Shown here: in pieces, positions 9,218-29,560 of the stretch
Numbering within the stretch: position 1 is the stretch's first letter
Layout: the number at the start of each line of letters is the position of its first letter
Source of the DNA: a virus
Reading direction: 5' to 3' (one strand)
Virus record (IMG/VR): IMGVR_UViG_3300034109_001208
Span: 1 to 39,182 of that record
DNA: 39,182 nucleotides
Made by a program: the position numbers and the translations under genes
Notes under the pieces: model-generated
Databases searched by the model: none
Seen by the model: the letters and a program-made list of their open reading frames with translations, nothing else
What the model was told of the DNA's origin: nothing

Positions 9218-9822
9218 CGGACGATACCTGTTTTGTTGAAGATCGACTCGACGTAGGCGTCGAGCTGCCGAAGGGCCACATCGCCCTCGTTGTTCAGGAT
9301 CAAGTCCCACTGATCGTCGGGGATCGACGCGAGCTCCGTGTCTGAGCTGTGCAGGCGATGAACGTCGTCCACGTTACGGTCCACGCGCGCCACTTGACCG
9401 TACCGCTTGCACATGTCGAACTCGTTCTTGTGCCGGAGGTCTGTGACGCACAACGCGATGGTAGGGTGATGCTCAAACAGGATCTGGATGGTCTGCTCCA
9501 GCGCGTTGACCCAGATGCACTGCGAGTCTTCGGCAAACGGGCGTGCGCCGTCGCGCGCGGCGTGCTGGCCGAATGCCTTGCGCATCGCTTCGCTCCCCAT
9601 GAGCTGCAGCGCGCGCCGCGGCGAGATGCCCCACTGAGGGTCGACCGCCTCCTTGAATGCGCGGTTCTCCAGTTGGCGGCGCTCCCACCCGAAGATGGTG
9701 CATGCGGCGTCCTTGAGCTTGCTCGCGAACGACACCTTCGTGAAGCCGTGCTCTCTCTCAAGGTAGTCCGCGAGGTAGTCTTTGCCGACGCCTTGCTTAT
9801 AGCCAAGCGCGATGAGGATCAT
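9214..9822 (-). CDS. Deoxynucleoside monophosphate kinase
   Basis: A 202-residue P-loop kinase predicted to phosphorylate dNMPs to dNDPs for phage DNA synthesis in the cytoplasm. The Walker A loop is GYKQGVGKD (residues 7-15), with Asp after the Lys as in T4 gp1-type dNMP kinases. The segment ISPRRALQLMGSEAMR matches the conserved region after the lid in that family, and CVTDLRHKNEF is the strand with the conserved Asp-Arg. Length is normal for the family. AAGGA lies before the ATG. The start lies inside the end of the RuvC-like gene (26-base overlap), indicating co-translation. The exact nucleotide specificity cannot be read from the sequence. Confidence 0.87.
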   Translation of the reverse strand: MILIALGYKQGVGKDYLADYLEREHGFTKVSFASKLKDAACTIFGWERRQLENRAFKEAVDPQWGISPRRALQLMGSEAMRKAFGQHAARDGARPFAEDSQCIWVNALEQTIQILFEHHPTIALCVTDLRHKNEFDMCKRYGQVARVDRNVDDVHRLHSSDTELASIPDDQWDLILNNEGDVALRQLDAYVESIFNKTGIVR

Positions 9823-10396
9823 GATTGATTCCTTGGTGGATGGTCAGGTTCCCCTCTTTGAGGACCTGAAGTTTTTTGTCATATATGCGGCGCGCGCACA
9901 ACGCCAGCAAGTAGGCCTCCGCCTCGTGATCTGTGAACACGTCGTGGTCTTTCCACGTGGCGCCCTGTTGCTCCCTTAGGAGGCGCCGAGCCTCAAGGAT
10001 AGCGTCGTCTTTTTTAGCCTCGTTTCCTTGACCTTTACCGAAGATCTCGGATCTCCACTCGCTGGGCTTTAGACTCGTATGCGCGCAGTGGTGGTATACG
10101 GACAGCCGCAGCACGCCGCTGCCTTCGCCCATGGCGTGCTGCACACCTTGGCCCTTTACGCCGTATGCGCAGCCTTCCACCACTGCGAACAGGATGGGAC
10201 CTGTTGCGCGCAGCTCGTTGAGCACGTCAGCCAGACCTGCCCGCAGGTACTCCAACCTTGCGACAGAGCCGGGCTTGTTGTACTTTGTGGGCGTGCGAAT
10301 CAGACGCACGTGGTCCTGCGTGTTCTGCGCGCCCTCCAGCCCTACCACGCCGATCCCGACGTTCGTAAGGCTTGGATCTATACCCAAAAACCACAT
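9797..10396 (-). CDS. RuvC-like Holliday junction resolvase
   Basis: A 199-residue RNase H-fold nuclease predicted to cut Holliday junctions or other branched DNA, resolving recombination and packaging intermediates. The first strand holds the catalytic Asp in FLGIDPSLTNVG (D7). The second acidic residue is in AVVEGCAYG (E74). The C-terminal motif TDHEAEAYLLA supplies the last acidic/His group, as in RuvC. The segment PSEWRSEIFGKGQGNEAKK matches the usual region before the last motif. GGAG stands 6 nt before the ATG at 10396. The frame runs further upstream but overlaps a rightward gene. It heads the unit with dNMP kinase and starts only 16 bases from the divergent gene. Confidence 0.87.
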   Translation of the reverse strand: MWFLGIDPSLTNVGIGVVGLEGAQNTQDHVRLIRTPTKYNKPGSVARLEYLRAGLADVLNELRATGPILFAVVEGCAYGVKGQGVQHAMGEGSGVLRLSVYHHCAHTSLKPSEWRSEIFGKGQGNEAKKDDAILEARRLLREQQGATWKDHDVFTDHEAEAYLLALCARRIYDKKLQVLKEGNLTIHQGINHDPHRAWL

Positions 10397-10412
10397 CTTT
10401 GCTCCGAGGTAA
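10397..10412. promoter_or_regulatory. 16-base divergent junction with back-to-back ribosome sites
   Basis: The leftward start at 10396 and the rightward frame opening at 10413 are 16 bases apart. The sequence CTCCGAGG contains the leftward SD (GGAG on the minus strand) and the rightward SD (GAGG) side by side. Promoters for both genes must lie inside the opposite coding sequences or further away. Confidence 0.6.
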
Positions 10413-10415
10413 ATG

Positions 10416-10775
10416 ATGGCCAGCATCGTACTGACAGTGGATGGCGCGCTGGTCGTGGGTCCGCTGTTCCAGCTGACGCTCACGACGTCTGCGCCTGTAG
10501 ACATTCCGGCTGAGATCCTGCTGATCGATTCGCGCAAGCTGACCTTCGTCCGCGTCTGCACGCTCGCAGACATGATATACCCCACGGCGCCTGATCTTGC
10601 CCGTGCAATTTACCACCGTGTGTCGACTGTCACGAAACAGTTCTCGACGTTGTCGGACGCAGAGGCAGCGAAGACTGCATACGCGGCGGCGGTGCAAAAC
10701 CTCCTGGATACCTATCAGGTGGGCACAGATACCTTCAACAACTCTTCGACTGTATACTCTCTCACCGGGGTGTGA
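10416..10775 (+). CDS. Hypothetical protein, possible virion component (119 aa)
   Basis: A protein of unknown function. ATG codons at 10413 and 10416 are adjacent. I chose the second, which is 6 nt from GAGG. The first half is strand-rich and hydrophobic (ASIVLTVDGALVVGPLFQL). The second half is helical and ends in a Ser/Thr-rich tail. It is followed after 2 bases by a long coiled-coil protein gene. Because the other rightward genes include terminase and portal, a structural role is plausible, but no motif proves it. Confidence 0.72.
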   Translation: MASIVLTVDGALVVGPLFQLTLTTSAPVDIPAEILLIDSRKLTFVRVCTLADMIYPTAPDLARAIYHRVSTVTKQFSTLSDAEAAKTAYAAAVQNLLDTYQVGTDTFNNSSTVYSLTGV

Positions 10776-10777
10776 TC

Positions 10778-11812
10778 ATGGCCCTGCCAACGATTGGATA
10801 TCAAGTCCGCAATCAGGGACAGACGCAAGACGGGCCTTCGTACAGGATCGAGACGGTCGTCACCGCCAAAGGTGACCTGCCCGACATTCACCTGTTCTTG
10901 CTCAGAATCAACGACCGCGCACGCGCAGCCGCCGACACGTTGGAGCGCGTATGCAGCGTGGCAGACTTCACAGACTACCAGCCAGACAGGCTGACCGCCG
11001 CACTGCAAGGCCAGACCTTCTATCGCGTGTCTGCGATGGTGGTCACATATACTGCGATCGACGTGGCGATCGCAGCGCGAGACTTGATCTCGGAACAGAT
11101 CACTGCGCTCGCGTTATCGTACAGGACGTACGTAGATGATTTCTCCACGGCTGGCTTCTCGCAGAGCCGTCAACCGTATAACTGGCCTGCGTTCGACAAG
11201 ACGCTGCGCGCGCGCCTCGTCGAAACGTACTGCGCTGCGCGAGCCTTGTCGCGTGCGCAGGCAGACGTGGTCACAGCGCTGCAAGCTGCGATCTCAACTT
11301 CTGGAGCTCGGATCACAGAGCTGCAAGCAGATCTCACGGATCTGCAGTCCGTGAGATCGCAGCAGTCTGCGAGCCTGACCCAGCTGCAGAGCGTCCAGAG
11401 TACGCAGACCGCGACCCTCAACGCGATGCAGCTATACCTCGCGGAGGTCAGCGCGGGCCTCGCGGCATACGTTGAGCCCAACGGTGCGGACGCCTACTTT
11501 GGCGCCGCGGGCACGGTCACCGCGCAGCAGTCCACGCGAGAGGCGCAGGTCGTCGCGGCGCAGGCGCAGCTCTCGGCCCTCACCGCTGTCATCGCGCAGC
11601 TCCAGGCAGCGCTCACCACGCTTGACGCTTCTGTGAGCGCCAAGCAGGCTGCCATCGCGACAGAGACGGCAGCGCGCGCGGGGCAGCAACAGGACCTTGA
11701 CCTCGCGCTGTCAACGCAGGCTACATACGGCGCCGCGGAAGGCTCCGCGCTCGCCGATGTCCTGCAAGTCGACCCCACGTTTGACTCGGAGACGGACTGC
11801 TGCTGTGCGTGA
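10778..11812 (+). CDS. Long coiled-coil protein ending in a Cys cluster, probable virion protein
   Basis: A 344-residue protein. After a mixed-fold N-terminal 150 residues, about 165-325 are almost continuous heptad-like Ala/Leu/Gln/Thr helices (ITELQADLTDLQSVRSQQSA; STREAQVVAAQAQLSALTAV), broken once by a Gly/Pro/Asp loop (EPNGADAYFG). It ends in TDCCCA, three cysteines in a row. GGGGTG stands before the ATG at 10778, and an overlapping GTG at 10772 is a possible alternative start. Long coiled coils are common in phage tail, fibre and whisker proteins. The Cys tip might cross-link or bind metal. The stop abuts the stop of the convergent gene with no gap. Confidence 0.75.
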   Translation: MALPTIGYQVRNQGQTQDGPSYRIETVVTAKGDLPDIHLFLLRINDRARAAADTLERVCSVADFTDYQPDRLTAALQGQTFYRVSAMVVTYTAIDVAIAARDLISEQITALALSYRTYVDDFSTAGFSQSRQPYNWPAFDKTLRARLVETYCAARALSRAQADVVTALQAAISTSGARITELQADLTDLQSVRSQQSASLTQLQSVQSTQTATLNAMQLYLAEVSAGLAAYVEPNGADAYFGAAGTVTAQQSTREAQVVAAQAQLSALTAVIAQLQAALTTLDASVSAKQAAIATETAARAGQQQDLDLALSTQATYGAAEGSALADVLQVDPTFDSETDCCCA

Positions 11813-13654
11813 TCATTTGACGGGTGGCGTCATACGCAGCTTCACTCCGGGCCAGTTGTCCGGTATGCGCGCCCCGTTGGACGTCACGCACCACAGCCAC
11901 ACGCCCTGAGCACGGGACTTTGGGCGCTCCTTCGGCTGGGGCACGTAGCCGTCCGTGAAGTACACACACGCGTCGATCTTGGGCATCTTGAGCGCCACCT
12001 CGCGGATGTGATCCGCCAGCTCGGGGTAGTCCTTCTTACTCCACGTGGCGTCGACCAGATCCATGAGCGCATCGCAGTCTGTGCCGCCGCGTGACGTACG
12101 CCCGATCTTCTTGAGGTAATTCTTGAAGTCTTCAGCATCGGTCACGCGGCCAAGCGACGAGATCTGCGTGTCCATCTGGGCGACGTACATCTCCACGCCG
12201 GGCATTGATTTGAGCATCGAGTACACCTCGTTCATGCCAGCCATCACCTCGTCGTTCCCCATGGATCCGGAAGTGTCCACGCAGAACAGCACGGAGTGTC
12301 TACGATCTTTGGTCTTGCCGGGGAACGCGGGGTAAAGCTCCGCCACGTTTGGCACGCCATGCGCGGCGCCTTGGGTGCCAAATCGTCTCCGGCTCGGCAG
12401 TCGCTGTGTGGAACGGGTGAGCGTGCGGATACGTGCTTGCACATGCTGCTTGAGCACCTTCTCCCATGGGATCACACGGGTCTCCCGCAGCTCTTCGAGC
12501 CTCGACTGCAAATGAGCCGGCATGCGCCCCACCTGCTTGAAGATCTTCTCCAGGTCGGTCAACACGGAGACCTCCAGGTTGCGGATGGAGGACTCTTCAA
12601 GCATGTCGCGGACAGCGTCGGCGCTCTGAGACTCTGCGGACGGCGACACATTCTCTGGCTCTTCGAGGTGGGCTCTACGCAGCGCGTGGTCGAGCCCCTG
12701 ATGCAGCATCCGCTTGGCGCCGGCGCTGAGGTTGGCGTTCTCGGAGATCGCCTTGTGCGCCTCTGCCACGAGCATGCTTGCTGTCAAGGCACGCTGGTTG
12801 GCGTCTGGGCGGCCACTTGCCTGTCCCGTGCCTTGTCCCGTGGATTCTGAAGGCGAGCCCTCACCTTGACCCTCACCTTGACCCTCACCTTGACCCTCAC
12901 CTTGACCCTCACCTTGACCCTCACCTTGACCCTCACCGGGCTCTGCGCCCTCAGCTTCCTCCGCGCAGGTCCCGTCCTTGTCTTCGATGGGGTCGTCGGG
13001 CTTGCGTCCCTTGGCTGCCGACAGGGCCGTGCGGATGCTGGATAGCACGTCCTGTGCGCAGGCCTTGGATTCGTTGTACAGCGCGTCGAGCTGATCGACG
13101 TACCACTCGGAGCTTCGCCCCTCCTCCAGCTCGTAGTCTTCGGGCATGATCGGCGGAGAGTTGGTCATCTTCGTCCGCATCTCCGGATTGTTGATGACGA
13201 GCTGCGTATTCACAGCACAGTCCGCCGCGGGGTTGCAGACCATGCTCGCGTACATGGACCGCTCTTCAGGGGCGACGTTACGGAGCTGTCTGCGCATGCG
13301 CGGCACGTCGCGCATCGTGAGGTGGCGGATCTCGTGTTGGAGCACGATAGACACCTCCCAGAGCGGGCAGCGCTTGAACCAGTGCATGTTCACGTGCAGG
13401 ATGTAACCTGCGCCGGGCAAGTAGGACAACGCCATGCAGAACGACACCGGATCCGTGTGCAGCTCATGCCGGAGGCGTTGTGCGAGGCGCGCGGCGTACA
13501 TCTCGTCGCCGTTGGCACGCGTATTAGATACGCGCCCGTAGCTGCTGAGGAACTGCGAGAACCGATACCTGCCGTCTCCCGGAGCTTCGGGGGCGTCAGG
13601 GGTGTAGAGCTGCAGTCCGTTCCAACTTTCGATCGTCGTGGGCTTTCTTGACAT
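11813..13654 (-). CDS. Metallopeptidase-like plus VWA domain protein (DUF2201-type), MoxR partner
   Basis: A 613-residue two-domain protein. The N-terminal region has a zinc-peptidase signature, HEIRH at residues 107-111, followed by NPAADCAVN (141-149), the pattern of the DUF2201 putative metallopeptidase domain. A low-complexity acidic linker with six GEGQ repeats follows (about 240-265), then a helical region. The C-terminal VWA domain has a complete MIDAS: DTSGSMG (460-466), GGTD (about 527) and YFTDGY. Proteins with this layout usually work with a MoxR AAA+ ATPase, which here is encoded at 15501-16790 on the same strand. An AGGG-type SD precedes the ATG at 13654. A CobT-like chelatase subunit is a weaker alternative because of the HExxH motif. 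The substrate is unknown. Confidence 0.83.
   Translation of the reverse strand: MSRKPTTIESWNGLQLYTPDAPEAPGDGRYRFSQFLSSYGRVSNTRANGDEMYAARLAQRLRHELHTDPVSFCMALSYLPGAGYILHVNMHWFKRCPLWEVSIVLQHEIRHLTMRDVPRMRRQLRNVAPEERSMYASMVCNPAADCAVNTQLVINNPEMRTKMTNSPPIMPEDYELEEGRSSEWYVDQLDALYNESKACAQDVLSSIRTALSAAKGRKPDDPIEDKDGTCAEEAEGAEPGEGQGEGQGEGQGEGQGEGQGEGQGEGSPSESTGQGTGQASGRPDANQRALTASMLVAEAHKAISENANLSAGAKRMLHQGLDHALRRAHLEEPENVSPSAESQSADAVRDMLEESSIRNLEVSVLTDLEKIFKQVGRMPAHLQSRLEELRETRVIPWEKVLKQHVQARIRTLTRSTQRLPSRRRFGTQGAAHGVPNVAELYPAFPGKTKDRRHSVLFCVDTSGSMGNDEVMAGMNEVYSMLKSMPGVEMYVAQMDTQISSLGRVTDAEDFKNYLKKIGRTSRGGTDCDALMDLVDATWSKKDYPELADHIREVALKMPKIDACVYFTDGYVPQPKERPKSRAQGVWLWCVTSNGARIPDNWPGVKLRMTPPVK
12861..12932. 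repeat. In-frame 12-bp minisatellite, six perfect copies
   Basis: The unit TCACCTTGACCC is repeated six times without a mismatch and encodes (GEGQ)6 on the minus strand in the linker of the VWA protein. Identity at the nucleotide level suggests recent expansion by slippage or recombination. A partial seventh copy follows. Confidence 0.9.
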
Positions 13655-13758
13655 CGTCTTCCCTTTTGTTTTAGCACGGAGCACGTTATTTTGCGGTGGA
13701 CCACTCCCCTACATGGAGAGTAGGGTCACCCGGGCTATACACGAGAGGTCGAGCCATT
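13655..13758. promoter_or_regulatory. Divergent intergenic region with inverted repeats
   Basis: This 104-base gap separates the leftward VWA gene from the rightward pair. It contains the palindrome GTGGACCAC (13696-13704) and the inverted repeat CCCTAC / GTAGGG (13707-13712 and 13720-13725). A TATAC element at 13736 resembles a -10 box but has no convincing -35 partner. It is likely to hold promoters and operator sites for both directions. Confidence 0.5.
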
Positions 13759-14784
13759 ATGACGCAGATCGTAGACCATGTGACTGATACCGAACGTACG
13801 CTAAATGACTTGGACCTTCATGGTCTTATACCTCAAGATCACGTGAAACAAGCTGGCGCACCGGTCTACGCGTGGCCCGAGACGCAGCTGTTTCCGCTCC
13901 ACACCGCGCAGGACGCGACGTGGAGTTTGGCGTATGCCACCCGCCAAGCACCGCGCGTGCCGCCCGTCGTGGTGGAGCGGCTCAAGAACGCGTGCGCGCT
14001 CTACAACATCAGCCCCACGCGTGTCGCAGAGCTCGCGGTGGCGCGCACCAAGCTCGCGGCGCCGACGCTCGCGGAGGCCGATTACATCCTCCCACAGTAC
14101 GCGCTGTGGCCCGTCAAGACGGCCTCGGACTGGCGACAGGCCTGCGAGGAGTATGTCCACCAGGGCAGCCGCCTCGCTCCCGACACGCGGGCGCAGGCCG
14201 CAGTGAGCCTGATCCAGAAGGCAGCGTCGCTGGGTCTGGATACGAGCGCCGTACCTACTGACCTGTACAAGCGCGCGGGCCTGACGCTCAGCGATGCGGG
14301 TACGCTTTGCGAGCACCTCCACGCACGCTCGTACCTGTTCCCCGAGGGGCATACGGGTCGCGAGCACTTCAAGATGGCGGCGGAGACTGTTTACAACAAC
14401 TTCCCTTACATCGGTGTGATCGCCGACCGTCAAGAGCTCGTCAAGATCGCGCAGGTCATCTCAGACCTGGACGCGCAGTATGAGCTGATTCGCTATTATG
14501 GCACGCGGATCGTCGATCCATATCTCGCCGTCTTCAACACAGACAAACTGGCTTCCGCCAACGTGGATCTGGATGGCACACCGGTGCCTGTGTCGCTGCT
14601 GCTGGATCTCGGAGAGCAGGAGCTTGAGGCCATCCTTGGCGCCGACTTTATGACCGAAGTTCGCGGGCCGGACGGATCAGTGGATCCGGGCACGTTCGCT
14701 GTCGTGGTCGATACGCTGCCGCGCCCCCTCAAGGTGACGCTGTTGGACATGGTGCGGCAGAATCTGTCGCAGGGTGAGCTTTGA
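13759..14784 (+). CDS. Probable virion-associated protein (341 aa)
   Basis: The start is the ATG at 13759, with GAGAGG about 11 nt upstream. The segment YILPQYALWPVKTASDWRQA, then LAPDTRAQAAVSLIQKAASLG, resembles a pattern I associate with phage structural or scaffold-related proteins, an 'ALP..Y.L.P..t..dv..A' block followed by 'L.P..R..AA..i...A...G'. This is recalled, not searched. The C-terminal half is helical with no catalytic motif. It is coupled to the next gene and lies between the VWA and MoxR genes but on the opposite strand. Confidence 0.72.
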   Translation: MTQIVDHVTDTERTLNDLDLHGLIPQDHVKQAGAPVYAWPETQLFPLHTAQDATWSLAYATRQAPRVPPVVVERLKNACALYNISPTRVAELAVARTKLAAPTLAEADYILPQYALWPVKTASDWRQACEEYVHQGSRLAPDTRAQAAVSLIQKAASLGLDTSAVPTDLYKRAGLTLSDAGTLCEHLHARSYLFPEGHTGREHFKMAAETVYNNFPYIGVIADRQELVKIAQVISDLDAQYELIRYYGTRIVDPYLAVFNTDKLASANVDLDGTPVPVSLLLDLGEQELEAILGADFMTEVRGPDGSVDPGTFAVVVDTLPRPLKVTLLDMVRQNLSQGEL

Positions 14785-15506
14785 TGGACGCGCCGGAGAA
14801 TCTGAGCCCAGAGCGCCGCGCCGCCGCCCGCGCTGCTCTGGAGAACGAAGACGCCTCCGCATCGGCGGTCTTCATGGGCGCGACCACGCTGCTCGGGGAT
14901 CAGTGCCGTGTGTACGAGGCGGAGACGACGCGCCTGCTCTTGCGGCGCATCCACAACATCGCGGTGCCTGAACTGCACTTTGAGAAGCTGCAGTGCATGA
15001 TCACCGCGTCTGTACAGCCGACGCTGTTGTGGGAGATCAACGCGTTCGAGAACACGATGGCGTGCTGCGCAGGCGTGCCCATGCTCGTGGACATCGTGCA
15101 GGAGCTTCATCCGCTCCAGATCGCGTGGGGTGTTCACGAGATAATCCCGTTCTTGCGGATCTGGCATCCTGAGATCCTACAGTCTCAGCAGGCGGATGAT
15201 CTGTTCGATCACGAGCCACGTTCGTATACCGCTCTGATGCTCTATCAGGAGGGGTTCGTAATCGCGCCGCCGGAGCTGTCGTGGGCCCAGCGTGAGCTGG
15301 ACCGCATGATACAGGACAAGGGCCTGCAGGCGCGCGTACGTACGCGCTGGGCAGAGCTCTACAAGCTAAAAAACAGCGACGAGCTCCGCGCGCTGGAGTT
15401 GACTGACTCCGACGAGGACGTGCAGATCGCACGCCTCGTCGGAGTTCACACGTACGTACGCGAGCGCCACGCTGCGCACGTACAGGAGCTCGCTACCCTC
15501 TTATGA
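14784..15506 (+). CDS. Hypothetical protein coupled to the preceding virion gene (240 aa)
   Basis: A mostly helical, acidic protein of unknown function. The ATG overlaps the previous stop (TGATG), with AGGGTGAG upstream, so translation is coupled. Segments are rich in Leu, His and Trp (WGVHEIIPFLRIWHPEILQ), and the C-terminal 70 residues are charged helices. It may act with the 341-residue protein, for example as a chaperone or second structural component, but nothing identifies it. Its stop overlaps the stop of the convergent MoxR gene by 6 bases. Confidence 0.72.
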   Translation: MDAPENLSPERRAAARAALENEDASASAVFMGATTLLGDQCRVYEAETTRLLLRRIHNIAVPELHFEKLQCMITASVQPTLLWEINAFENTMACCAGVPMLVDIVQELHPLQIAWGVHEIIPFLRIWHPEILQSQQADDLFDHEPRSYTALMLYQEGFVIAPPELSWAQRELDRMIQDKGLQARVRTRWAELYKLKNSDELRALELTDSDEDVQIARLVGVHTYVRERHAAHVQELATLL

Positions 15507-16790
15507 GGGCATGGAGTTGAGCTCCCTGTTGGTTGCCGCCATCGCGGGGGCGTTCCGCGCGATGTGTGTCACGGCGATCTTCGAGTGCAGCGCGGCGCCG
15601 AGGAGCTGCGTCATGTACCTCGTGTTGTAGCCGCCGTTGGTGTACTGCGCTGCCTTGGTGTACTCGCGGAGCTGATCTGTGAACGCGCCCCACGTGTGCT
15701 CGTGCACGAGCGTGTAGAGGTGTGCGAGCGAGTCAGCGACCTTATCCGCGGGCGGCTTGTGGACGGCGATGTAGTCCGCCAACCCGCGCATCGTGTCGCT
15801 GAGCTGATTGTCGCGACCTTCGCTGGAGATCTTCTGGATCGCCTCGTATGCGCGGTCACCTGGCACCATCTCCAGGATGTTTTTGGGATCGAGCTGTGCC
15901 TCCTGGTTTCGATAGTAGTCCTGGAACTTCACACCAGCGTCGCCGCCGACGCTGCCCATCACTGCGGCGTCGAAGGCGGCCTCGATGACAGCGAGCCGGT
16001 GACTGACGTCGATCTCGCTGAGCTCCTTGTCCTTGATGACGGCCTCTCGCTGCTTCTCCAGGGAGTAGACGAGCGCGCTGACACGCTCCCAGCCGCCTGC
16101 GGTGGCGAAGATTTCGCCGCCCTCCTCGCCCGCCTCGTCATGGATGTACCCCATGTTGGCCGCGAGGAAGTTGAGCAGCACGGGGTGCCACGGCGCATCC
16201 GTGCCACCATGCAGGGACGGGTCACGTGCGTACGCGAGGAGCTCCTCTGGCCCGCGCACGACGGGGATCACGACGCAGCGCCGCAGCAGCGCAGGGTCGC
16301 TCGTGACCTGTGACGCGACGGCGTAGCCGCCGTCCGCAGGGTTGGCCGCCAGGATCACACGCACGTTCTCGCCGATCCGATATCCGCCGAGCCAACCGTC
16401 GAGCAGCTGGAACAGCGCGTTGATCGTATGCTGCTCCACACGATTCACCTCGTCGAGGAACAGCACGACCTTCGCGGGGTCGTCGCCCACGGGGATACGT
16501 CCGTCGCGGACGTAGTGGAACGTGTCCCCGTCCTTGTCGAAGAAGGGCAGGCCGGTCAAGTCGGTCGGCTCCATGCCGATCATACTCATGCGGACGACCT
16601 TATACCCATGCTGCCTTGCAACGGCGTTGACGGCAGCGGTCTTGCCCTGCGCGGTCGCGCTGATCAGGAACGGTATGAGCGTGCCGCGAGGCATTGTGAA
16701 CGCCTGCGCGCACAATGCCTTTGCTACGGCCAGGGGCACCGCGTTGGCCAAGCCGTACGCGTCCCAAAAGTTCTTCTTGTCCTGTGCCAT
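15501..16790 (-). CDS. MoxR-type AAA+ ATPase
   Basis: A 429-residue ATPase, probably a chaperone-like motor that remodels a target through the VWA protein encoded at 11813-13654. The P-loop is SATAQGKT (residues 44-51): the GKT is kept but the first Gly of the usual GxxxxGKT is missing. Walker B is VVLFLDEVNR (108-117), sensor 1 Asn is in VILAANP (about 150), and DPALLRRC (165-172) is the arginine-finger region. The RMSMIGMEPTDLTG segment matches the region after the P-loop in MoxR and CobS-like proteins. AGGAG precedes the ATG. Cobaltochelatase CobS is an alternative relative, but no other cobalamin gene is seen. Confidence 0.83.
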   Translation of the reverse strand: MAQDKKNFWDAYGLANAVPLAVAKALCAQAFTMPRGTLIPFLISATAQGKTAAVNAVARQHGYKVVRMSMIGMEPTDLTGLPFFDKDGDTFHYVRDGRIPVGDDPAKVVLFLDEVNRVEQHTINALFQLLDGWLGGYRIGENVRVILAANPADGGYAVASQVTSDPALLRRCVVIPVVRGPEELLAYARDPSLHGGTDAPWHPVLLNFLAANMGYIHDEAGEEGGEIFATAGGWERVSALVYSLEKQREAVIKDKELSEIDVSHRLAVIEAAFDAAVMGSVGGDAGVKFQDYYRNQEAQLDPKNILEMVPGDRAYEAIQKISSEGRDNQLSDTMRGLADYIAVHKPPADKVADSLAHLYTLVHEHTWGAFTDQLREYTKAAQYTNGGYNTRYMTQLLGAALHSKIAVTHIARNAPAMAATNRELNSMPS

Positions 16791-16865
16791 CTCTTTCTCC
16801 TATTGTTGTTGTGTCGCTACGCCTAAACGGTGGTAGCGTCTACTTGTACCACAGGATCTCCAATT
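16791..16865. promoter_or_regulatory. Divergent region upstream of the terminase gene
   Basis: A 75-base gap between the MoxR start (leftward) and the terminase start (rightward). It carries GTGGTA (16830-16835) and TACCAC (16847-16852) as an inverted pair, and CGCTAC / GTAGCG (16815-16820 and 16833-16838), which overlaps it. The second half-site ends 13 nt before the terminase ATG, where a bound protein could hinder expression. No convincing -35/-10 pair was found. Confidence 0.5.
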
Positions 16866-18518
16866 ATGACGATCAATCCGATCGAGATGTCGCGCTGTGA
16901 TTTTGCAGAAGCCATGTGCATGCTTAACGGTGAAATGTTCAGCATGCGCGAGGTGCCTATGTTCTACGACATCATGGAGTGTAACGATCAGGATGTGCTG
17001 CTCAAGTGTGGTCGTCAGGTTGCAAAATCTACGACGATGTGCGCTCGCAACATCGCGAACAGCGCGTGTATCCCGCACTTCAAGACCCTGTACATATCGC
17101 CGACGCAGAACCAGACGAAGGTTTATTCACGCTCGCGTCTCCAGAAGATGATCGACCACAGCCCGCTTGCAGCGCAGCTCCTTGTGGGGCACGGCCTCCC
17201 GATGGACATCTTCACGAAGCACTTCCGAAACGGATCCGAGATCAACCTCGGATACGCCAAGGACGACCCGGATCGCATCCGATCGCAGTCTGCCGACGAG
17301 ATCGACTTTGACGAGATCCAGGACATGCTGTGCCATATCGTCTTTCCTCCGATCATCGAGACAAACGCGCGATCCAAGTACAAGTGGGTATGGAAGGCGG
17401 GGACGCCCAAGAGCGCCGAGGCCTTTATTGAGACCGACTGGAAGCGATCCACTCAAGACGAGTGGATCATGCGGTGCCTCAAATGCTCCAAGTGGAACTT
17501 CATCGATTCGGTGCGCAGCCTCGGCAAGACGGGCCCGATATGTGTGTCGTGTGGCGGTCCGCTCAACGTCCGGGGTGGCAGATGGCACTCGATGAACCAC
17601 AACCCAAACATGGTGCTGCAGACCCGCGGGTTCCACATTCCGCAGGTCATCCTGCCGATCCACTTCGAGCCGCAGCCTGATGAGCAGATCCGCAACGGCC
17701 AGCCGTCTTTGCAGTGGATGAACATCCTCAAGAAGCTCGACACGTACGACGACGTGTCCTTCTTGAACGAGGTTCTTGGCGTGAGCGTGTCCACAGGAGC
17801 TCGCACGATCACGCTCGCAGCGCTGGAGGCGCAGTGCCGAGACTACGACTTTCCATTGGTCCCCGATGCGTGGCACACGAATGGCGTGATCCGCGGTCAG
17901 GACGACGTCATGTCGATCTACGCCGGCGTGGACTGGTCAGGTGGCGGCTACTCGTCTGCATCGTATACGTCTCTTTGGATCATAGGCGCTCTGCCGAACG
18001 CGTGCTACAAATTGCTCTACTACAGGATCTTTCAAGGCAAAGACCCGCTACAGCACGTTCGAGAGGTCGTAAAAGAGTGTCGCAGATTCAATGTAAAAAA
18101 GATCGGCGCGGATGCTGGCGTCGGCGCGCTGGCGAACTCGATGCTACGCGAGGTGTTCGGATCGGACCGCGTCATACAGTTTCAGTACGGCGGCGGCACA
18201 AAGCATGATTGTATGTACCATAACGACCGTTATCACATCAACCGAACGGCGATGATCGACAGCTTCATGCTACAGGTCCTGCGTGGCCAGATCTTCTTTG
18301 CTAAAAAAGAGATCATGATGCCGGCGTTCCACCACATCCTGAATCCGTTTGAAGAGACGACGCGCGCGGGCACGCGCATCTGGCAAACCCCGGAGGGTCA
18401 GCCAGACGACGCGCTGCACAGCGGCGTATTCGCGAAGGTGACCGCCGAGCTTGACCTCGGGCGCCTCGCGCCATACGCCACGCCCACGCAGCAGGAGCTC
18501 TACTCGATGGACGACTGA
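16866..18518 (+). CDS. terL: Terminase large subunit
   Basis: A 550-residue packaging motor that translocates and cuts phage DNA at the portal. The ATPase domain has CGRQVAKST (residues 48-56) as Walker A, with Ala where Gly is common before the Lys, and ADEIDFDE (143-150) as Walker B plus catalytic Glu. A four-Cys zinc knuckle follows, CLKC (204-207) and CVSC (226-229), an insertion not present in the T4 or lambda paradigms. The nuclease domain has AGVDWSGG (D356), IGADAGVG and PDDALHSG, consistent with an RNase H-like metal site. The start at 16866 has AGGA 10 nt before it, and the upstream extension lies in the palindromic region. No small terminase subunit was recognised nearby. The end overlaps the convergent gene by 19 bases. 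Confidence 0.92.
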   Translation: MTINPIEMSRCDFAEAMCMLNGEMFSMREVPMFYDIMECNDQDVLLKCGRQVAKSTTMCARNIANSACIPHFKTLYISPTQNQTKVYSRSRLQKMIDHSPLAAQLLVGHGLPMDIFTKHFRNGSEINLGYAKDDPDRIRSQSADEIDFDEIQDMLCHIVFPPIIETNARSKYKWVWKAGTPKSAEAFIETDWKRSTQDEWIMRCLKCSKWNFIDSVRSLGKTGPICVSCGGPLNVRGGRWHSMNHNPNMVLQTRGFHIPQVILPIHFEPQPDEQIRNGQPSLQWMNILKKLDTYDDVSFLNEVLGVSVSTGARTITLAALEAQCRDYDFPLVPDAWHTNGVIRGQDDVMSIYAGVDWSGGGYSSASYTSLWIIGALPNACYKLLYYRIFQGKDPLQHVREVVKECRRFNVKKIGADAGVGALANSMLREVFGSDRVIQFQYGGGTKHDCMYHNDRYHINRTAMIDSFMLQVLRGQIFFAKKEIMMPAFHHILNPFEETTRAGTRIWQTPEGQPDDALHSGVFAKVTAELDLGRLAPYATPTQQELYSMDD

Positions 18519-18991
18519 GCCTTGGGCCGCACGACGCAGGAGCCATCGTCCTCGACGACGACCTCCAGCGGCGTGCACTTCCAGATAATCGCACGCGCGT
18601 CCTCGTCTGCAGACGACGCTTGCAGGACGCACTCACCTACGATGCGCACGAGCTCCGCGCGTGCGCGCCCCTCCGCCTGTGCGCGCTGGTGCGCACGCCA
18701 GCGGAGGTAGTCGGCGAGCAGCTCTGGCCCCACACGCGTCACGGCGCCCGCCTGCGCGAGCGCGTACACAAGTGGCCCCTCCACGTGGGGGAACGGCTGC
18801 ATCGTGACGGCACCATCGTGCACGGTCAACAAGGCGGGCGCGTGCAGCGCCAGTGACGTACTCGCGGCGTCGACTTCACTGGCGCGCACGGCGCCGAGAA
18901 TGTGCCCGCTCTGCATCGTGGGCATGATGCACACGACGATCTCCTCCTCTTCGGCGCGGAACAAGGACTTCACGCTCGCTCCAAACTGCAT
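18500..18991 (-). CDS. Hypothetical protein following DNA polymerase (163 aa)
   Basis: An alpha/beta protein of unknown function with no catalytic motif. GGGAGG stands 8 nt before the ATG, which overlaps the polymerase stop (TAATG), so the two are co-translated. An acidic run (RAEEEEIVV) sits near the N-terminus and hydrophobic strands near residues 15-60. The C-terminal segment (IIWKCTPLEVVVEDDGSCVV) looks like a beta hairpin. A replication accessory role is suggested only by position. The stop lies inside the convergent terminase gene. Confidence 0.75.
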   Translation of the reverse strand: MQFGASVKSLFRAEEEEIVVCIMPTMQSGHILGAVRASEVDAASTSLALHAPALLTVHDGAVTMQPFPHVEGPLVYALAQAGAVTRVGPELLADYLRWRAHQRAQAEGRARAELVRIVGECVLQASSADEDARAIIWKCTPLEVVVEDDGSCVVRPKAQSSIE

Positions 18992-21900
18992 TATGCCGCC
19001 TCCCGAAGACCCATGCTCACGAGGGCCTTGATGTATTTGTTGTCCGTAACGGTCTCGGGAGTGAGAGCGCACTCCAGCGGGATCTGCGACCCGTAGTTGG
19101 GTCCGACCGATACTTCGTACTGGTAGTCCACAGGCATCCACTTGTAACGCTCACGGATCCTCTCAACGATCCAGTAGTCGAAGAAAGCCTTGAGCTTATC
19201 GAGTGAGCGCAGGGGGACCTGTCCAGCGATGGAGTCGTGCACGGTCAGCAGCAGCTCGCCTCCCAGCTTGCGCAGGTGCGAATCGAGCTCACACATTTGA
19301 GACAGCAGCAGATCCGAGGCTGCTGTCTGGATCTTGAAGTTAACTGCCTGCCGCTGCGCACGCGCTCTGGCGCTGTTGTCGACGCTGATCAGCGGGAAGC
19401 GCCGCACACGACCGAACAGAGACCACACTTGACCGTAGCGGTTGACCTCTGCGTGCGTGTCTTGGATGTAGGCCTTCGTGCCGGGCGACATGTCGAACAG
19501 CATGGTCTCGATGCTCTTCGCGAACGCGACCTGCTCTGACTTCTCGGCCTCGTCCTCGGACACGAACCCGTAGATCTGCTCCACGGATCCGAGGGTGCCC
19601 TGGCCGTACAGCAAGCCGTACAGCACGCGCTTACAAGCAGTACGCTTGAACGCCACCTCGTAGTCGCTGTCCTTGACCTTCTCGACGTAATCGTAATCGA
19701 GACCGAAGATCTTGGACGTCATAAACGACGGCACGTTCATGCCGTCCCGCACCGCGATGGCCAGCGGGTCATCCTTGGGTAGGAACGCGCACAGAACGCG
19801 CACCTCGGCAGACGCGATGTCGAGGTTGAACATGACCATCCGGTCCTCCGGCAGCAGATCGACGTCGTCCGCCAGTCGGATAATGTTTGGCGCCGTATCG
19901 GGGATGAACAGGCACTTGATCTTCCAGCCTGGACTGGACTCGATCAGGATCTCCAGCCCGTCCTCGCCCACGAACGTCCACTTCCCGGCGCACAGCGTCG
20001 ATGGGATATTCTGCAGGTTGGGATCTGCGCTGGACAGGCGCCCCGTCACGGTGCCGTTCAGGTTGAACCGCGTGTGGACACGACCGTCGAGCGCCGCCGC
20101 GCGCTCCAGACCAGCGAGGTAGGTGGAGAGCGCCTTGTTGGCCTGTCCGTAGAGCGAGAGGCAGTACGCGAGCTCGCCCAGCTCCCGACTGTTTTCACGC
20201 TTGAGCTTCTGCCGGAACCCCGCATCGATCTTGATCGACCCGTCCTCATTGTAGTCGATCAGCCGCGCGGGGAGGTTGAACCGGGCGGCGATGACCTTCC
20301 CTAGCTGCGCGCCGCTCTTTAGGTTGACCTCGCTATCGCAGATCAGAGTCCGCAACCGCTGCTCCATGTTGTCCCGGAGCACTGTGATCTCTGCGCGGTA
20401 CTTCTCCAGAAGATCCTTGTCGAGAAGCGTGCCGCGCCGCTCCATGCGCTCCAGCGTCAGGGTGCCCGGGATGTACTGGTTCTTCATCACGGATTTGTAG
20501 GCCGCGAGAGGTCCAGAGCCATCTGGACGTGCTACGCGCTCCATCTGGAGCTTCGCGATGCGCCGCGTGATGTCTGCGTCGATACCGCCGTACTGAGACA
20601 GGATGTCGAGCGGGATCATCTCGTAGTTACCACCCTCAGCAGCAAACTCAGGAGTCTGCTCCACGGTAGCAGCTTTCGGTACGGGCAGCTTGAGGGCTTT
20701 GTAGATGGAGCTAATAGCCTTCTTGGCCACGCTACGCTCCGCGCGAAGGTGAGCGAGCGTCTCTTTGCTGTAGACCTTCTTCGCTTCGATCTTTAGCGTC
20801 AGAGCGCAGTAATGCGCCTCGATATCGAAGATCGTCTGGTTTACCACGATCCCGACGTCCCGACGCTCCTGCATGAACAAAGCACGCAGCTCTGGGCGCT
20901 GCTTGCACAGCGTCTCCGCTCCTTCGTAACAGATGTAGTTCTGGTCGTTGATGGATTCGATGAACACCTTCTTGAGATGATCCTCGTAACCCGCGAACGT
21001 AGGGGCGAACTCCAGCGTCAGCGATTTGAGACCATTGAACCCTGTCGCGCCCTCGTTGATCCAATGGTAACCGAGCAGCGTGTCCCAGTACAGGTTCACC
21101 GTTGGGATGTTCACCTGCTGCAGCACGTTGATGTCAAACTTCGCGTTGTGCATGATCTTGGGCTTGCGGCTCGTCACGATCTTACGGACGCACTCGCGCG
21201 CCTCGACAGGATCGTACGGCGACATCTTGTGATCCATCACGATTGTGGCGGCCTTGCCCTCGTCCCAGCCCACGCACAGCATAAGCACCTTGAAGTCCGG
21301 GGCGTACGGATGCACGCCTGTGGTCTCGGTGTCGATAGAGATGGCCCAGTTCTCCGGTGGCGCGGCGGCGCGCCCCGTGTAGTTGAGCACGTGCTCTGTG
21401 AGGTCGCGCACGTCTTGGATGTCCTTCGGCACGACGTAGTCTTTGGTCAGCTCACCGAGATCGGACGCGCCCGCGAAGCCCTCGTACAAGCACTTCATTG
21501 CGAGCCCGAGGTCGCTGATCAACACCTCGACGGTGTTGGGGTTCATGAACATCTGGCGCGGCGAGATGGTGGGCACCACCGCGTACGTGTGCCCCTCCAC
21601 CTTGATCGTGTGCACGCGACCGCGGATGTCCGCGTGCTTGCCGCCCTCCAGTTGCAGCGCCTCCGCACAGCCGGGTCCCAGCGCAAGGATGACGTTCCGC
21701 CCGTGCGGGTTGTGTGCGCGTGCGCGCCGCGCGGCCTCGGCCAGCTTGGCGTTCATATACGGCGCGCACGAGCGCGTCGCTTTGGTGGTGGGCTTCGCGC
21801 GCGCAAACTCTTGACTCGCGCACGCATACATAAGCGAGTAGTTGATCCGCAGCCCAGGCGTCTGGCTGTTGATCCGCTCCATCGCGGTCTTCAGCGTGTT

Positions 21901-22089
21901 GCGGATCTCGTGGCTGATGACGGTGCCGTTGCCCCGGCCTCGAAAATCAGGGCTCTCCAGCATGACGATGAAGTTCGTGTCTGAAGAGCCAGCGTAGTAG
22001 CCTGACAGCAGGCAGTTGCCGTCCTTTGCAGGGCAATTCTCGCACACAGATTCGCTGCGTACGGATCTTGTCCACTCTGAATCGAGCAT
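18991..22089 (-). CDS. Family A DNA polymerase fused to an N-terminal UDG-like domain
   Basis: A 1032-residue replicative polymerase with three parts. Residues 1-200 resemble family 4 uracil-DNA glycosylases: C16, C19, C90 and C108 match the 4Fe-4S ligands and VVPTISPRQMF the C-terminal motif, but the catalytic GExPG loop reads LESPD. A 3'-5' exonuclease follows with IDTET (D253, E255), HNAKFDIN and GGIDAD, apparently active. The polymerase domain has TGRLSSADPNLQNIPS, motif A NLDIASAEVR, motif B RTACKRVLYGLLYG (Tyr at the E. coli F762 position) and motif C VHDS (about 950-953). AGGAGG precedes the ATG. A UDG-polymerase fusion is known from phages such as SPO1. It lies just downstream of the primase-helicase. 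Confidence 0.93.
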   Translation of the reverse strand: MLDSEWTRSVRSESVCENCPAKDGNCLLSGYYAGSSDTNFIVMLESPDFRGRGNGTVISHEIRNTLKTAMERINSQTPGLRINYSLMYACASQEFARAKPTTKATRSCAPYMNAKLAEAARRARAHNPHGRNVILALGPGCAEALQLEGGKHADIRGRVHTIKVEGHTYAVVPTISPRQMFMNPNTVEVLISDLGLAMKCLYEGFAGASDLGELTKDYVVPKDIQDVRDLTEHVLNYTGRAAAPPENWAISIDTETTGVHPYAPDFKVLMLCVGWDEGKAATIVMDHKMSPYDPVEARECVRKIVTSRKPKIMHNAKFDINVLQQVNIPTVNLYWDTLLGYHWINEGATGFNGLKSLTLEFAPTFAGYEDHLKKVFIESINDQNYICYEGAETLCKQRPELRALFMQERRDVGIVVNQTIFDIEAHYCALTLKIEAKKVYSKETLAHLRAERSVAKKAISSIYKALKLPVPKAATVEQTPEFAAEGGNYEMIPLDILSQYGGIDADITRRIAKLQMERVARPDGSGPLAAYKSVMKNQYIPGTLTLERMERRGTLLDKDLLEKYRAEITVLRDNMEQRLRTLICDSEVNLKSGAQLGKVIAARFNLPARLIDYNEDGSIKIDAGFRQKLKRENSRELGELAYCLSLYGQANKALSTYLAGLERAAALDGRVHTRFNLNGTVTGRLSSADPNLQNIPSTLCAGKWTFVGEDGLEILIESSPGWKIKCLFIPDTAPNIIRLADDVDLLPEDRMVMFNLDIASAEVRVLCAFLPKDDPLAIAVRDGMNVPSFMTSKIFGLDYDYVEKVKDSDYEVAFKRTACKRVLYGLLYGQGTLGSVEQIYGFVSEDEAEKSEQVAFAKSIETMLFDMSPGTKAYIQDTHAEVNRYGQVWSLFGRVRRFPLISVDNSARARAQRQAVNFKIQTAASDLLLSQMCELDSHLRKLGGELLLTVHDSIAGQVPLRSLDKLKAFFDYWIVERIRERYKWMPVDYQYEVSVGPNYGSQIPLECALTPETVTDNKYIKALVSMGLREAA

Positions 22090-25439: not shown

Positions 25440-26327
25440 TTACTCCTGAGGTTTTTCGTCTGCGGGTACCTCTTCACGTCCAGGGGCGACAGCGTCGGCG
25501 GATTCTTGCGGGGGACTCTCCAACTTCCCACCGCGCGCCGGGCATCGGCCCACGAACTCGCACCATTGACAGTGGCTGCCGACCTCGGGGGGTGGCTGGC
25601 CTTCAAACGAATCCAAGCGTGTCTCGGTACGGGTGACCCAGTTCTGCAGCCAAAGAAGCAGATCTCCGAGCTCACGGCGGTGATATGCCTCCGGACGGAA
25701 CTCGATCACGCTGTCCCGCAAGAAGTGCACGGCGCACAGCACCTTCTCAGCGTCTGGGTAGTGTGCGAACCCCAGCAGCGCGTACACCTGCAGCTGCTGC
25801 GCGAACTCGGGCAGCGGACGGCGCCCGCCCGTCTTGTGGTCGAGGATCACGACGGTCTTCTTCTCGGAGCTGTACGCCACGACGTCAAGGACGCCACGGA
25901 AGAACGCCCCCTCTCCGAAGAAAGCACGCGCGGAGCCGTCCGCGCCGATGCCGAGCTGCTTCTCTGCCACGACATCGTGCTTGGGGATCCCGAATCTCTC
26001 GCGCCACAGATGGAAGCGTCCGGAGAACGCATCCATCTGATCTCGAAGCATCAACAGCTCCAGGATCTCTTGGTGCGTGAGCTGTTCGTCTGCGGACGCC
26101 TTGCGCATCAGCACGTCCATGCTCTCGGTGGACCCCATCACGCGCTGCTCAAGCACCCAGTGGGCTGCGCGACCAACACGACCATCTCCGCGTGCGACGC
26201 GCCATTTGCGGATGCTCTTGTTTACATGCTCCCAGTAAAATCGGAGCGCACACTGATCTGCTTGGTTCAACCGACTCTGGGACCACGGACGGCCCTTGAG
26301 CACGAGGCTGTTCGTCGTATCAATCAT
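25440..26327 (-). CDS. RecB/Cas4-like PD-(D/E)XK nuclease with Fe-S-type cysteines
   Basis: A 295-residue nuclease, probably an exonuclease for DNA end processing or recombination. WSQSRLNQADQCALRFYW (residues 15-32) is the typical N-terminal motif with the first Cys (C26). FFRGVLDVV and VVILDHKTGG form the catalytic D...DxK core. QQLQVYALL is the QxxxY motif. C253, C256 and C262 (CQWCEFVGRC) complete a four-Cys set as in Cas4/AddB 4Fe-4S nucleases. The tail is charged and disordered. AGGAGG lies before the ATG, immediately after the U-tract of a terminator. It is followed by the primase-helicase and polymerase genes, consistent with one replication operon. Confidence 0.88.
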   Translation of the reverse strand: MIDTTNSLVLKGRPWSQSRLNQADQCALRFYWEHVNKSIRKWRVARGDGRVGRAAHWVLEQRVMGSTESMDVLMRKASADEQLTHQEILELLMLRDQMDAFSGRFHLWRERFGIPKHDVVAEKQLGIGADGSARAFFGEGAFFRGVLDVVAYSSEKKTVVILDHKTGGRRPLPEFAQQLQVYALLGFAHYPDAEKVLCAVHFLRDSVIEFRPEAYHRRELGDLLLWLQNWVTRTETRLDSFEGQPPPEVGSHCQWCEFVGRCPARGGKLESPPQESADAVAPGREEVPADEKPQE

Positions 26328-28561: not shown

Positions 28562-29560
28562 TCACGCGATGCGTGAGGTCTCGTTGGCGCGGCTACCGCG
28601 GCACTCCGCGTAGTAGTCGCACCACTTTGCGTTGCACACCCACGACTCCGGCGTTGTACGCGGATAGGAGCCGCTCGCGATACTCTCGGCCACGTCGGTC
28701 ACGTAGTCAAGGGCGTGCTCAATCTCCGCATGCGTGCGGACGACGCCCATGCCGTCCTCCGGCCAAGAGCGCAGCCGCGGCGCCGCCGTACGAGCGGTTT
28801 GGCCCGGGCGGATAATGAGCTCGAACCCGACGCGCGCACACCCGGTGGTCGCCGCATACAGCGTGAGCTGCAGCGAGTTGTTCACCTGATGCGGCCCGTA
28901 GTTCTTCTTCACGGTCTTGAGATCGAGGATCGTGTCCTGCGGATGCGGACGCGGATCCTTCGAGGCCGCGTACTCCGGGCTCATGAGCACGGTGTCTGCG
29001 TTCTTCACCACGAGGTCCACGAAGCCCATGTATGGGATGCGGTCGCGGATGATGGTCTCGATCTTGTGCTCCGAGACCCGCGGGTGGAGCTGCGGGAGTC
29101 GATCGCGGATGAACAGGCCCGCGAGCATGCGGGACTCGTGGGCGAGCTTCTCACGACGCTTGGTGGGGTCGGTGATGTCGACGAATGCGTCGTCGTCCCA
29201 CCGCTCCACCTCCGCGGCGAGGTCCACGACATTCTGGTCAATCCAGGCGAACGCCTCGTCCGGGTGCATGTCCTTACCCGTCTTGATCTTGTGGTTGACC
29301 GCGTGCTCCACGGCGCCGTGCGTCAGCGTGCCTGCGACCATGCCTGCCGATGCACCGCCGCGCTTCTTGAGCACGTAGCGGTAGTAGTATCGCCGCGGAC
29401 ATGACTGGTGCAGCGTGAGCTGCGAGAAGGACAGCGCGCGCACCGGCAGCTGGATGATCCGGGACTCTGCCTCTGTGAGCTGTGCGATGTACTCCTCGTT
29501 GCCCGTGAAGTCCGCGTCGACGTCGTCGAGGGGGTCGATCTCAAACTCGATGTCTTCCAT
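28562..29560 (-). CDS. Second RecB/Cas4-like PD-(D/E)XK nuclease with Fe-S-type cysteines
   Basis: A 332-residue nuclease. LSFSQLTLHQSCPRRYYYRY (about residues 43-62, C54) is the N-terminal motif, and GTLTHGAVEH the conserved His region. YMGFVDLVV supplies the catalytic Asp and TILDLKTVKKN the DxK. SLQLTLYA is the QxxxY helix. C309, C314 and C320 (CNAKWCDYYAEC) complete a Cas4/AddB-type iron-sulfur site with unusual C-x4-C-x5-C spacing. The acidic N-terminal 40 residues may be disordered. It differs clearly from the 295-residue nuclease, so the phage carries two members. AAGGA precedes the ATG, which overlaps the preceding stop (TAATG). Confidence 0.87.
   Translation of the reverse strand: MEDIEFEIDPLDDVDADFTGNEEYIAQLTEAESRIIQLPVRALSFSQLTLHQSCPRRYYYRYVLKKRGGASAGMVAGTLTHGAVEHAVNHKIKTGKDMHPDEAFAWIDQNVVDLAAEVERWDDDAFVDITDPTKRREKLAHESRMLAGLFIRDRLPQLHPRVSEHKIETIIRDRIPYMGFVDLVVKNADTVLMSPEYAASKDPRPHPQDTILDLKTVKKNYGPHQVNNSLQLTLYAATTGCARVGFELIIRPGQTARTAAPRLRSWPEDGMGVVRTHAEIEHALDYVTDVAESIASGSYPRTTPESWVCNAKWCDYYAECRGSRANETSRIA

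Follow-up and report, generated by a model that had tools for sequence, protein, structure and literature searches.

A MoxR ATPase and metallopeptidase–VWA gene pair interlocked with a virion-gene pair in an uncultivated phage lineage

Gene layout of the locus

The DNA analyzed here, referred to as the window, is the 39,182-base IMG/VR virus record IMGVR_UViG_3300034109_001208, in which a MoxR-type AAA+ ATPase gene and a gene for a metallopeptidase fused to a VWA domain lie on the minus strand, separated by two plus-strand genes, here called mid341 and mid240. The two minus-strand genes constitute a known phage pair, placed in a new and conserved interlocked arrangement within an uncultivated lineage of large phages. 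All four frames reported in a preliminary description of this DNA, made from the letters alone, are open:

11813-13654, minus strand: metallopeptidase domain (DUF2201_N, HExxH), acidic Gly-Glu-Gln linker and VWA domain with a complete metal ion-dependent adhesion site (MIDAS); phrog_1314, homologue of N4 gp25
13655-13758: divergent intergenic region between the VWA gene and mid341
13759-14784, plus strand: mid341, mostly helical protein of 341 aa; homologue of Salmonella phage Arash gp242
14781-15506, plus strand: mid240, 241 codons from TTG; homologue of the Arash gp243 family
15501-16790, minus strand: MoxR-type AAA+ ATPase of 429 aa; phrog_1297, homologue of N4 gp24

The VWA frame gives 613 aa from the ATG at 13654 or 623 aa from a GTG at 13684 (11813-13684), and the start of mid240 overlaps mid341 by 4 nt. 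The minus strand carries the MoxR and VWA genes together with those for DNA polymerase A (PolA), primase, RuvC, exonucleases, and a helicase, and the plus strand carries packaging and virion genes, namely the terminase large subunit gene (TerL) and, by homology to Arash gp242–gp243, mid341 and mid240. Since the pair is on the replication strand and the packaging and virion genes are on the other, the split appears to be ancestral, two gene sets transcribed in opposite directions having become interlocked. In codon composition, both leftward and both rightward genes resemble replication genes (GC content at third codon positions, 0.76-0.85).

The MoxR ATPase and the metallopeptidase–VWA protein

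The domain assignments of the preliminary description are borne out by profile searches. The MoxR protein passes the Pfam cut-off for AAA (23.2 bits vs 21.2) and matches phrog_1297 at 1.5e-35, and its partner passes the curated cut-offs for PF13203 (DUF2201_N; 42.5 bits vs 23.2), VWA_2 (32 vs 27), and DUF2201 (30.6 vs 26.4), and matches phrog_1314 at 8.5e-35. HEIRH, NPAADCAVN, DTSGS, GGT, and FTDG are all present in the VWA protein of the window. Across 41 sequences of the lineage described below (the window plus 40 non-redundant loci), H117, E118, H121, D155, and N159 (623-aa numbering) are found in 41/41, the MIDAS residues in all 38 sequences that have letters at those positions, and the Walker A GK, sensor N150, and R171 of MoxR in 41/41; with the Walker B Glu included, the MoxR motifs are conserved in 40-41 of 41. 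Conservation of the HExxH, MIDAS, and Walker motifs on this scale indicates that they are not chance matches, and the HExxH and MIDAS residues, on whose conservation the earlier claim had been staked, are thus retained. At the first position of the Walker A motif, the window has Ser (SATAQGKT) and the majority of relatives Gly. Residue 126, five positions past the second His and a candidate third zinc ligand, is His in 37/41 sequences and Asp in 3/41, including the window. That the catalytic residues are so well kept speaks for an active zincin and a functional MIDAS.

In the AlphaFold model of the VWA protein (mean predicted local distance difference test (pLDDT) score 74), the VWA fold occupies residues ~450-612 and aligns with known VWA domains at VIA-align Z values up to 13.5. 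A search of solved-structure profiles with 14 phage MoxR proteins ranked the AAA modules of midasin best (1.1e-43), followed by Clp ATPases and McrB; against phrog_249 (porphyrin biosynthesis), MoxR scored E 0.04. The phrog_1314 family is labelled 'HNH endonuclease' in PHROGs, as it is in AR9 (NC_031039), PBS1 (NC_043027), and MTATph1 (OR602862). Given that the VWA protein of the window has no HNH match in Pfam, this label is probably a propagated mislabel.

The middle genes

Neither mid341 nor mid240 has a significant match in Pfam, PHROGs, or isolate phages. A scan for distant TerL relatives yielded 58 loci, many from large phages; mid341 was matched directly in 11 of 42 TerL-related records and in further ones by iterated hidden Markov models, the resulting family extending to Salmonella phage Arash gp242. 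Profile–profile comparison of the lineage profiles supports the relationship for both genes, with mid341 matching the gp242 family (probability 99.0, E 3e-18) and mid240 matching two families of the downstream gene, the Arash gp243 family (probability 99.4 and 97.9), while the cross-comparisons between the mid341 and mid240 families fail, as expected. Relatives of mid240 always lie directly downstream of those of mid341. In purified Arash virions, gp242 was detected with 21 unique peptides and 550 spectra, and Gp243 is listed in the virion table (PMC10585845). The GenBank record of Arash gives gp243 as hypothetical, and it and PMC10585845 disagree on some neighbours, both listing gp242. By these profile matches the middle genes are a conserved virion-gene pair, so that the resemblance to a virion protein noted earlier for one of them extends to both, and the pair acquires a family. 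By analogy with Arash, the products of mid341 and mid240 would be present in the virions of this lineage.

The mid341 model is confident (pLDDT 89), and no solved relative was found for it by sequence or by Foldseek, the best VIA-align Z being 5.0; a viral structure library returned two phage proteins only, neither with a named function. For mid240, sequence search gave no solved relative. In the VWA–mid341 intergenic region, CTATAAT points toward mid341 in 12 of 49 lineage loci, as against 0.3 in shuffles, often 12-13 nt ahead of the mid341 ATG, and is absent before the MoxR, TerL, PolA, and coiled-coil genes of these loci. The window has its own version, CTATACA (within 13655-13758). No enrichment was observed for the T4-type late promoter TATAAATA.

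An uncultivated lineage with a frozen gene order

Two further loci, L169 and L090 (L323 is the same contig as L090), show the window's own order, and a TerL profile built from the three was used to gather the best 80 of at least 397 TerL relatives, whose TerL is 33-44% identical to that of the window. The order that recurs is RuvC (minus), coiled-coil gene (plus), VWA (minus), mid341 (plus), mid240 (plus), MoxR (minus), TerL (plus), and PolA (minus), the outer genes being scored where a locus extends far enough. In the window, the genes flanking the two couples are as follows:

9797-10585, minus strand: RuvC-like Holliday junction resolvase, conserved left minus-strand neighbour (phrog_159, 1.1e-20)
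10772-11812, plus strand: coiled-coil protein, conserved left plus-strand neighbour
16866-18518, plus strand: terminase large subunit TerL (phrog_675, 1.3e-42; PF05876, 1.1e-10)
18991-22089, minus strand: DNA polymerase A (PolA), conserved right minus-strand neighbour (PF00476, 6e-50; phrog_17, 5e-99)

For TerL, the ATG at 16866 (MTINP) is a likelier start than the GTG at 16830; the PolA and primase genes come after TerL, on the minus strand.

All 53 loci that hold the five central genes (40 non-redundant by TerL) have them in the order and on the strands of the window, and no central gene is missing from any locus that extends 6.5 kb or more upstream of TerL. Apparent exceptions were traced to convergent genes whose stops overlap, to a frame extended far upstream, or to the orientation of the locus. 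Mean pairwise identity across the 41 sequences is low (MoxR 0.27, VWA 0.28, mid341 0.36, mid240 0.30, TerL 0.49), which makes the conservation of order a deep one. In trees, the lineage MoxR proteins form one clade (support 0.96), as do the VWA proteins (support 0.76), with 28/28 sampled members and no outsider. The simplest history suggested by these trees is one acquisition of the pair followed by vertical inheritance, and the interlocking would likewise have been fixed once, in the ancestor of the lineage, and passed on vertically. Inheritance of this kind with intact catalytic residues implies that the pair probably matters to the phage.

No isolate of the lineage is present in the phage collection searched, the nearest isolates by TerL being Salmonella phage Arash and Vibrio phage D69 (28%). 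The same order is seen in a contig (L329, QMZE01000001.1) filed under an Archaeoglobales archaeon metagenome-assembled genome, which may have been mis-binned rather than indicate a host link.

The pair in other phages and the separation of the two couples

The preliminary description regarded a phage AAA+/VWA-protease pair as new, which it is not. The MoxR/metallopeptidase–VWA pair was named in jumbo phages in 2021 by Iyer et al., who proposed a role in virion assembly with peptidolytic processing, by analogy with Acidianus two-tailed virus (PMC7824862), and N4 gp24 and gp25 are two of the 14 N4-like core genes, listed as 'unknown' and 'vWFA domain' (PMC4193335). By tblastn, relatives of MoxR were found in 112 isolate phage records and, at the same sensitivity, those of the VWA protein in 21. 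LUZ7, ZQ2, nACB1, PAc, AR9, MTATph1, Slicko01, Phosso, Atu_ph07, and Madawaska have the two genes on a common strand, either next to each other or with one small gene in between, and in PA5oct four genes separate them. The window fits this pattern, with a phrog_1297 MoxR gene preceding, on the same strand, a partner with HExxH and MIDAS. No experimentally established function or published activity was found for any bacteriophage pair of this kind.

Scans of IMG/VR were made with reduced alignments, those of all 12 pairs being too divergent, and yielded 160 loci. Both genes occur in 150 of these, without exception on the same strand, and MoxR comes first in 147. In a set of 50 loci made non-redundant at a MoxR identity of 60%, the two genes adjoin in 30, and the virion pair separates them only in L169 and L090. 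When each of the four window proteins was scanned singly against viral_contigs, no true relative emerged. A candidate relative, L002, was rejected as a chance 19-residue match, and weak MoxR-like matches in L074 and L075 were not counted (~150 aligned positions, with no VWA partner in those records); one row of alignment A10 (L055) was the wrong gene and was left out.

Outside the lineage the two couples are separate: Arash-like phages have the virion pair without MoxR/VWA, and N4-like and jumbo phages have MoxR/VWA without the virion pair. In the 38 Arash-like TerL relatives, VWA was found in none and a partial MoxR-like match in one, while all eight control records (two in the model, six held out) were recovered; many of the 38 are fragments, so the absence of VWA is firm only for the large ones. 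These relatives had at first suggested that the four genes are not linked as a set, a conclusion overturned by the closer TerL relatives described above. Accordingly, the expectation that all four genes travel together holds within one lineage and fails beyond it. When TerL and PolA were controlled for, the partial correlation of distances was 0.53 for MoxR–VWA, as against 0.16 and 0.10 for MoxR with the middle genes, and 0.29 for mid341–mid240. Because the couples occur apart and MoxR tracks VWA over the middle genes, the proposal that the products of the latter may be substrates has been weakened.

Function of the pair and alternative explanations

From the families to which the two proteins belong, we infer a mechanism for the sequences and architecture observed here, in which the MoxR hexamer would be the ATP motor, the MIDAS of the VWA domain would dock the partner, with its N-terminal zinc-metallopeptidase domain, onto the hexamer, and the two together would remodel, and probably cleave, a bound protein. 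What this protein is and when it is met can be read in more than one way, and the conserved interlocking poses a specific question, that is, whether the pair is an early remodelling machine or a processor of virion proteins.

The reading we favour, with a confidence midway between doubt and assurance, is an early or replication-phase remodelling machine whose target would be a phage replication or transcription complex or a host protein, and which would not be dedicated to processing the two middle gene products. This is suggested by strand placement, by neighbours, and by AR9, in which an annotated early promoter precedes the pair, 33 of the 34 predicted early promoters of this phage having been found by differential RNA sequencing (PMC5312081). 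In about 50 non-redundant loci, one side of the pair holds Dda helicase, dCTP deaminase, exonuclease V, DNA polymerase, thymidylate synthase, and nucleotide kinases, and the other N4-like RNA polymerase and DNA ligase. Of the 25 commonest families on either side, none is a head or tail family. The LIT1 virion protein table contains no homologue of the pair (PMC3715699). Several observations weigh against an early role: N4-like phages count heavily in the neighbour survey, which has no far-gene control; the interlocking is kept without exception among sequences that share little identity, as might be expected if it were functional; the VWA–mid341 partial correlation is 0.31; a MoxR homologue was detected in virion preparations of Staphylococcus phage DC4 (PMC10638138); and the PA5oct homologue bears an electrospray tandem mass spectrometry (ESI-MS/MS) note in GenBank.

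The mass-spectrometric detections and the VWA–mid341 correlation, along with the lineage-wide interlocking with the virion-gene pair and TerL and the published jumbo-phage proposal (PMC7824862), favour a virion-assembly machine that would serve in the folding, assembly, or proteolytic maturation of virion proteins, mid341 and mid240 perhaps among them, an explanation that is possible though rather doubtful. Relatives hold the virion pair without the machine, unrelated phages hold the machine next to DNA-metabolism genes and lack the virion pair, the AR9 promoter is early, and the DC4 fractions also held GroEL and UvsX, the DC4 authors wanting co-packaging confirmed (PMC10638138). Interlocking alone does not decide function because the TerL–PolA order is equally frozen, and the AR9 promoter and the neighbours elsewhere, weighed against the mass spectrometry of DC4 and PA5oct, tip the balance toward early remodelling. 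A stricter form of the assembly idea, in which the four-gene block is one functional unit, the machine serving mid341 and mid240 as its dedicated clients and the arrangement on opposite strands tying its expression to theirs, is unlikely; if true, this would be the first bacteriophage MoxR–VWA machine genetically tied to named virion clients.

Early-type gene context could also suit a machine for host takeover or counter-defence, one that targets a host complex (host RNA polymerase, for instance, or a defence protein or metabolic enzyme) for remodelling or cleavage, and bacterial MoxR–VWA systems do act on host complexes and are coupled to conflict modules (PMC7159879). PADLOC, however, with which matches to conflict systems such as the vWA–MoxR ternary ones of the VMAP or FtsH type were sought, gave no hit for the four proteins, the only ones scanned, leaving the conflict-system link raised in the preliminary description without support. 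Occurrence throughout a deep lineage and among the N4 core genes is, moreover, more in keeping with a basic phage function than with one specific to a host; we regard this explanation as quite improbable. The pair might also be a metal-insertion chelatase or chaperone resembling CobS–CobT or NorQ–NorD, its zincin-like domain holding a metal without cutting, given that bacterial MoxR–VWA partners insert metals, as described for NorQD (PMC9976466, PMC13036017). Such a role is hardly to be expected here, as HExxH with the conserved third His/Asp makes a complete zincin set, its Glu present in 41/41, and neither protein significantly matches CobS or CobT models; the sole CobT-like match, phrog_17276 at E 0.17, is insignificant and falls inside the low-complexity linker.

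Comparison with known systems

To the N4-like and jumbo phages that have the pair, a large uncultivated lineage is now added. The jumbo-phage pair of Atu_ph07 (ASV44729.1, ASV44728.2) resembles that of the window in having MoxR and a metallopeptidase–VWA protein on the same strand, MoxR first, but is adjacent, whereas the window pair is split by two opposite-strand virion genes; the phage lineages are unrelated. Its VWA protein (ASV44728.2; L013:6181-7470) has HQILH in place of HExxH, and the peptidase may therefore be inactive there. In N4-like phages (Schitoviridae), the homologous core pair gp24/gp25 (phrog_1297, phrog_1314) stands beside RNA polymerase and replication genes, with no gene or a small same-strand gene between the two in the examples read, and without mid341/mid240. 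Bacillus phage AR9 has the homologous pair as g028–g029, and its GenBank record names a zincin-like protease fused to a vWA domain; unlike the split pair of the window, the AR9 pair is adjacent, behind the annotated early promoter. RavA–ViaA, NorQ–NorD, and midasin, known from the literature and of which only midasin was compared here, by profile, likewise combine a MoxR motor with a MIDAS VWA partner. These bacterial and eukaryotic machines have cellular substrates and are not known to carry a DUF2201 metallopeptidase domain.

Arash gp242–gp243 agree with mid341–mid240 in order, in being on the TerL strand, and in lying upstream of TerL, but Arash has no MoxR/VWA, and the slot before TerL is occupied by a leftward block with ThiF and JAB genes. 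In L087:9831-12851 (Arash gp246c-gp248c), this block comprises ThiF (E1-like), Prok-JAB, and a third gene between the virion pair and TerL. The ThiF/JAB set is listed in the Arash virion proteome, a ubiquitin-like gene set thus standing in the slot held here by MoxR.

Other features of the window

The replication block on the minus strand includes two separate phrog_69-type exonuclease genes (25440-26327 and 28562-29560). The minus-strand gene at 26378-27346 matches PF18897 (Gp3-like, recombination directionality factor-like) at 26.2 bits against a cut-off of 23.6. On the plus strand, 32980-34734 encodes a 584-aa protein of unnamed function that the window shares with the TerL-related phages L053 and L072 (E 4e-58).

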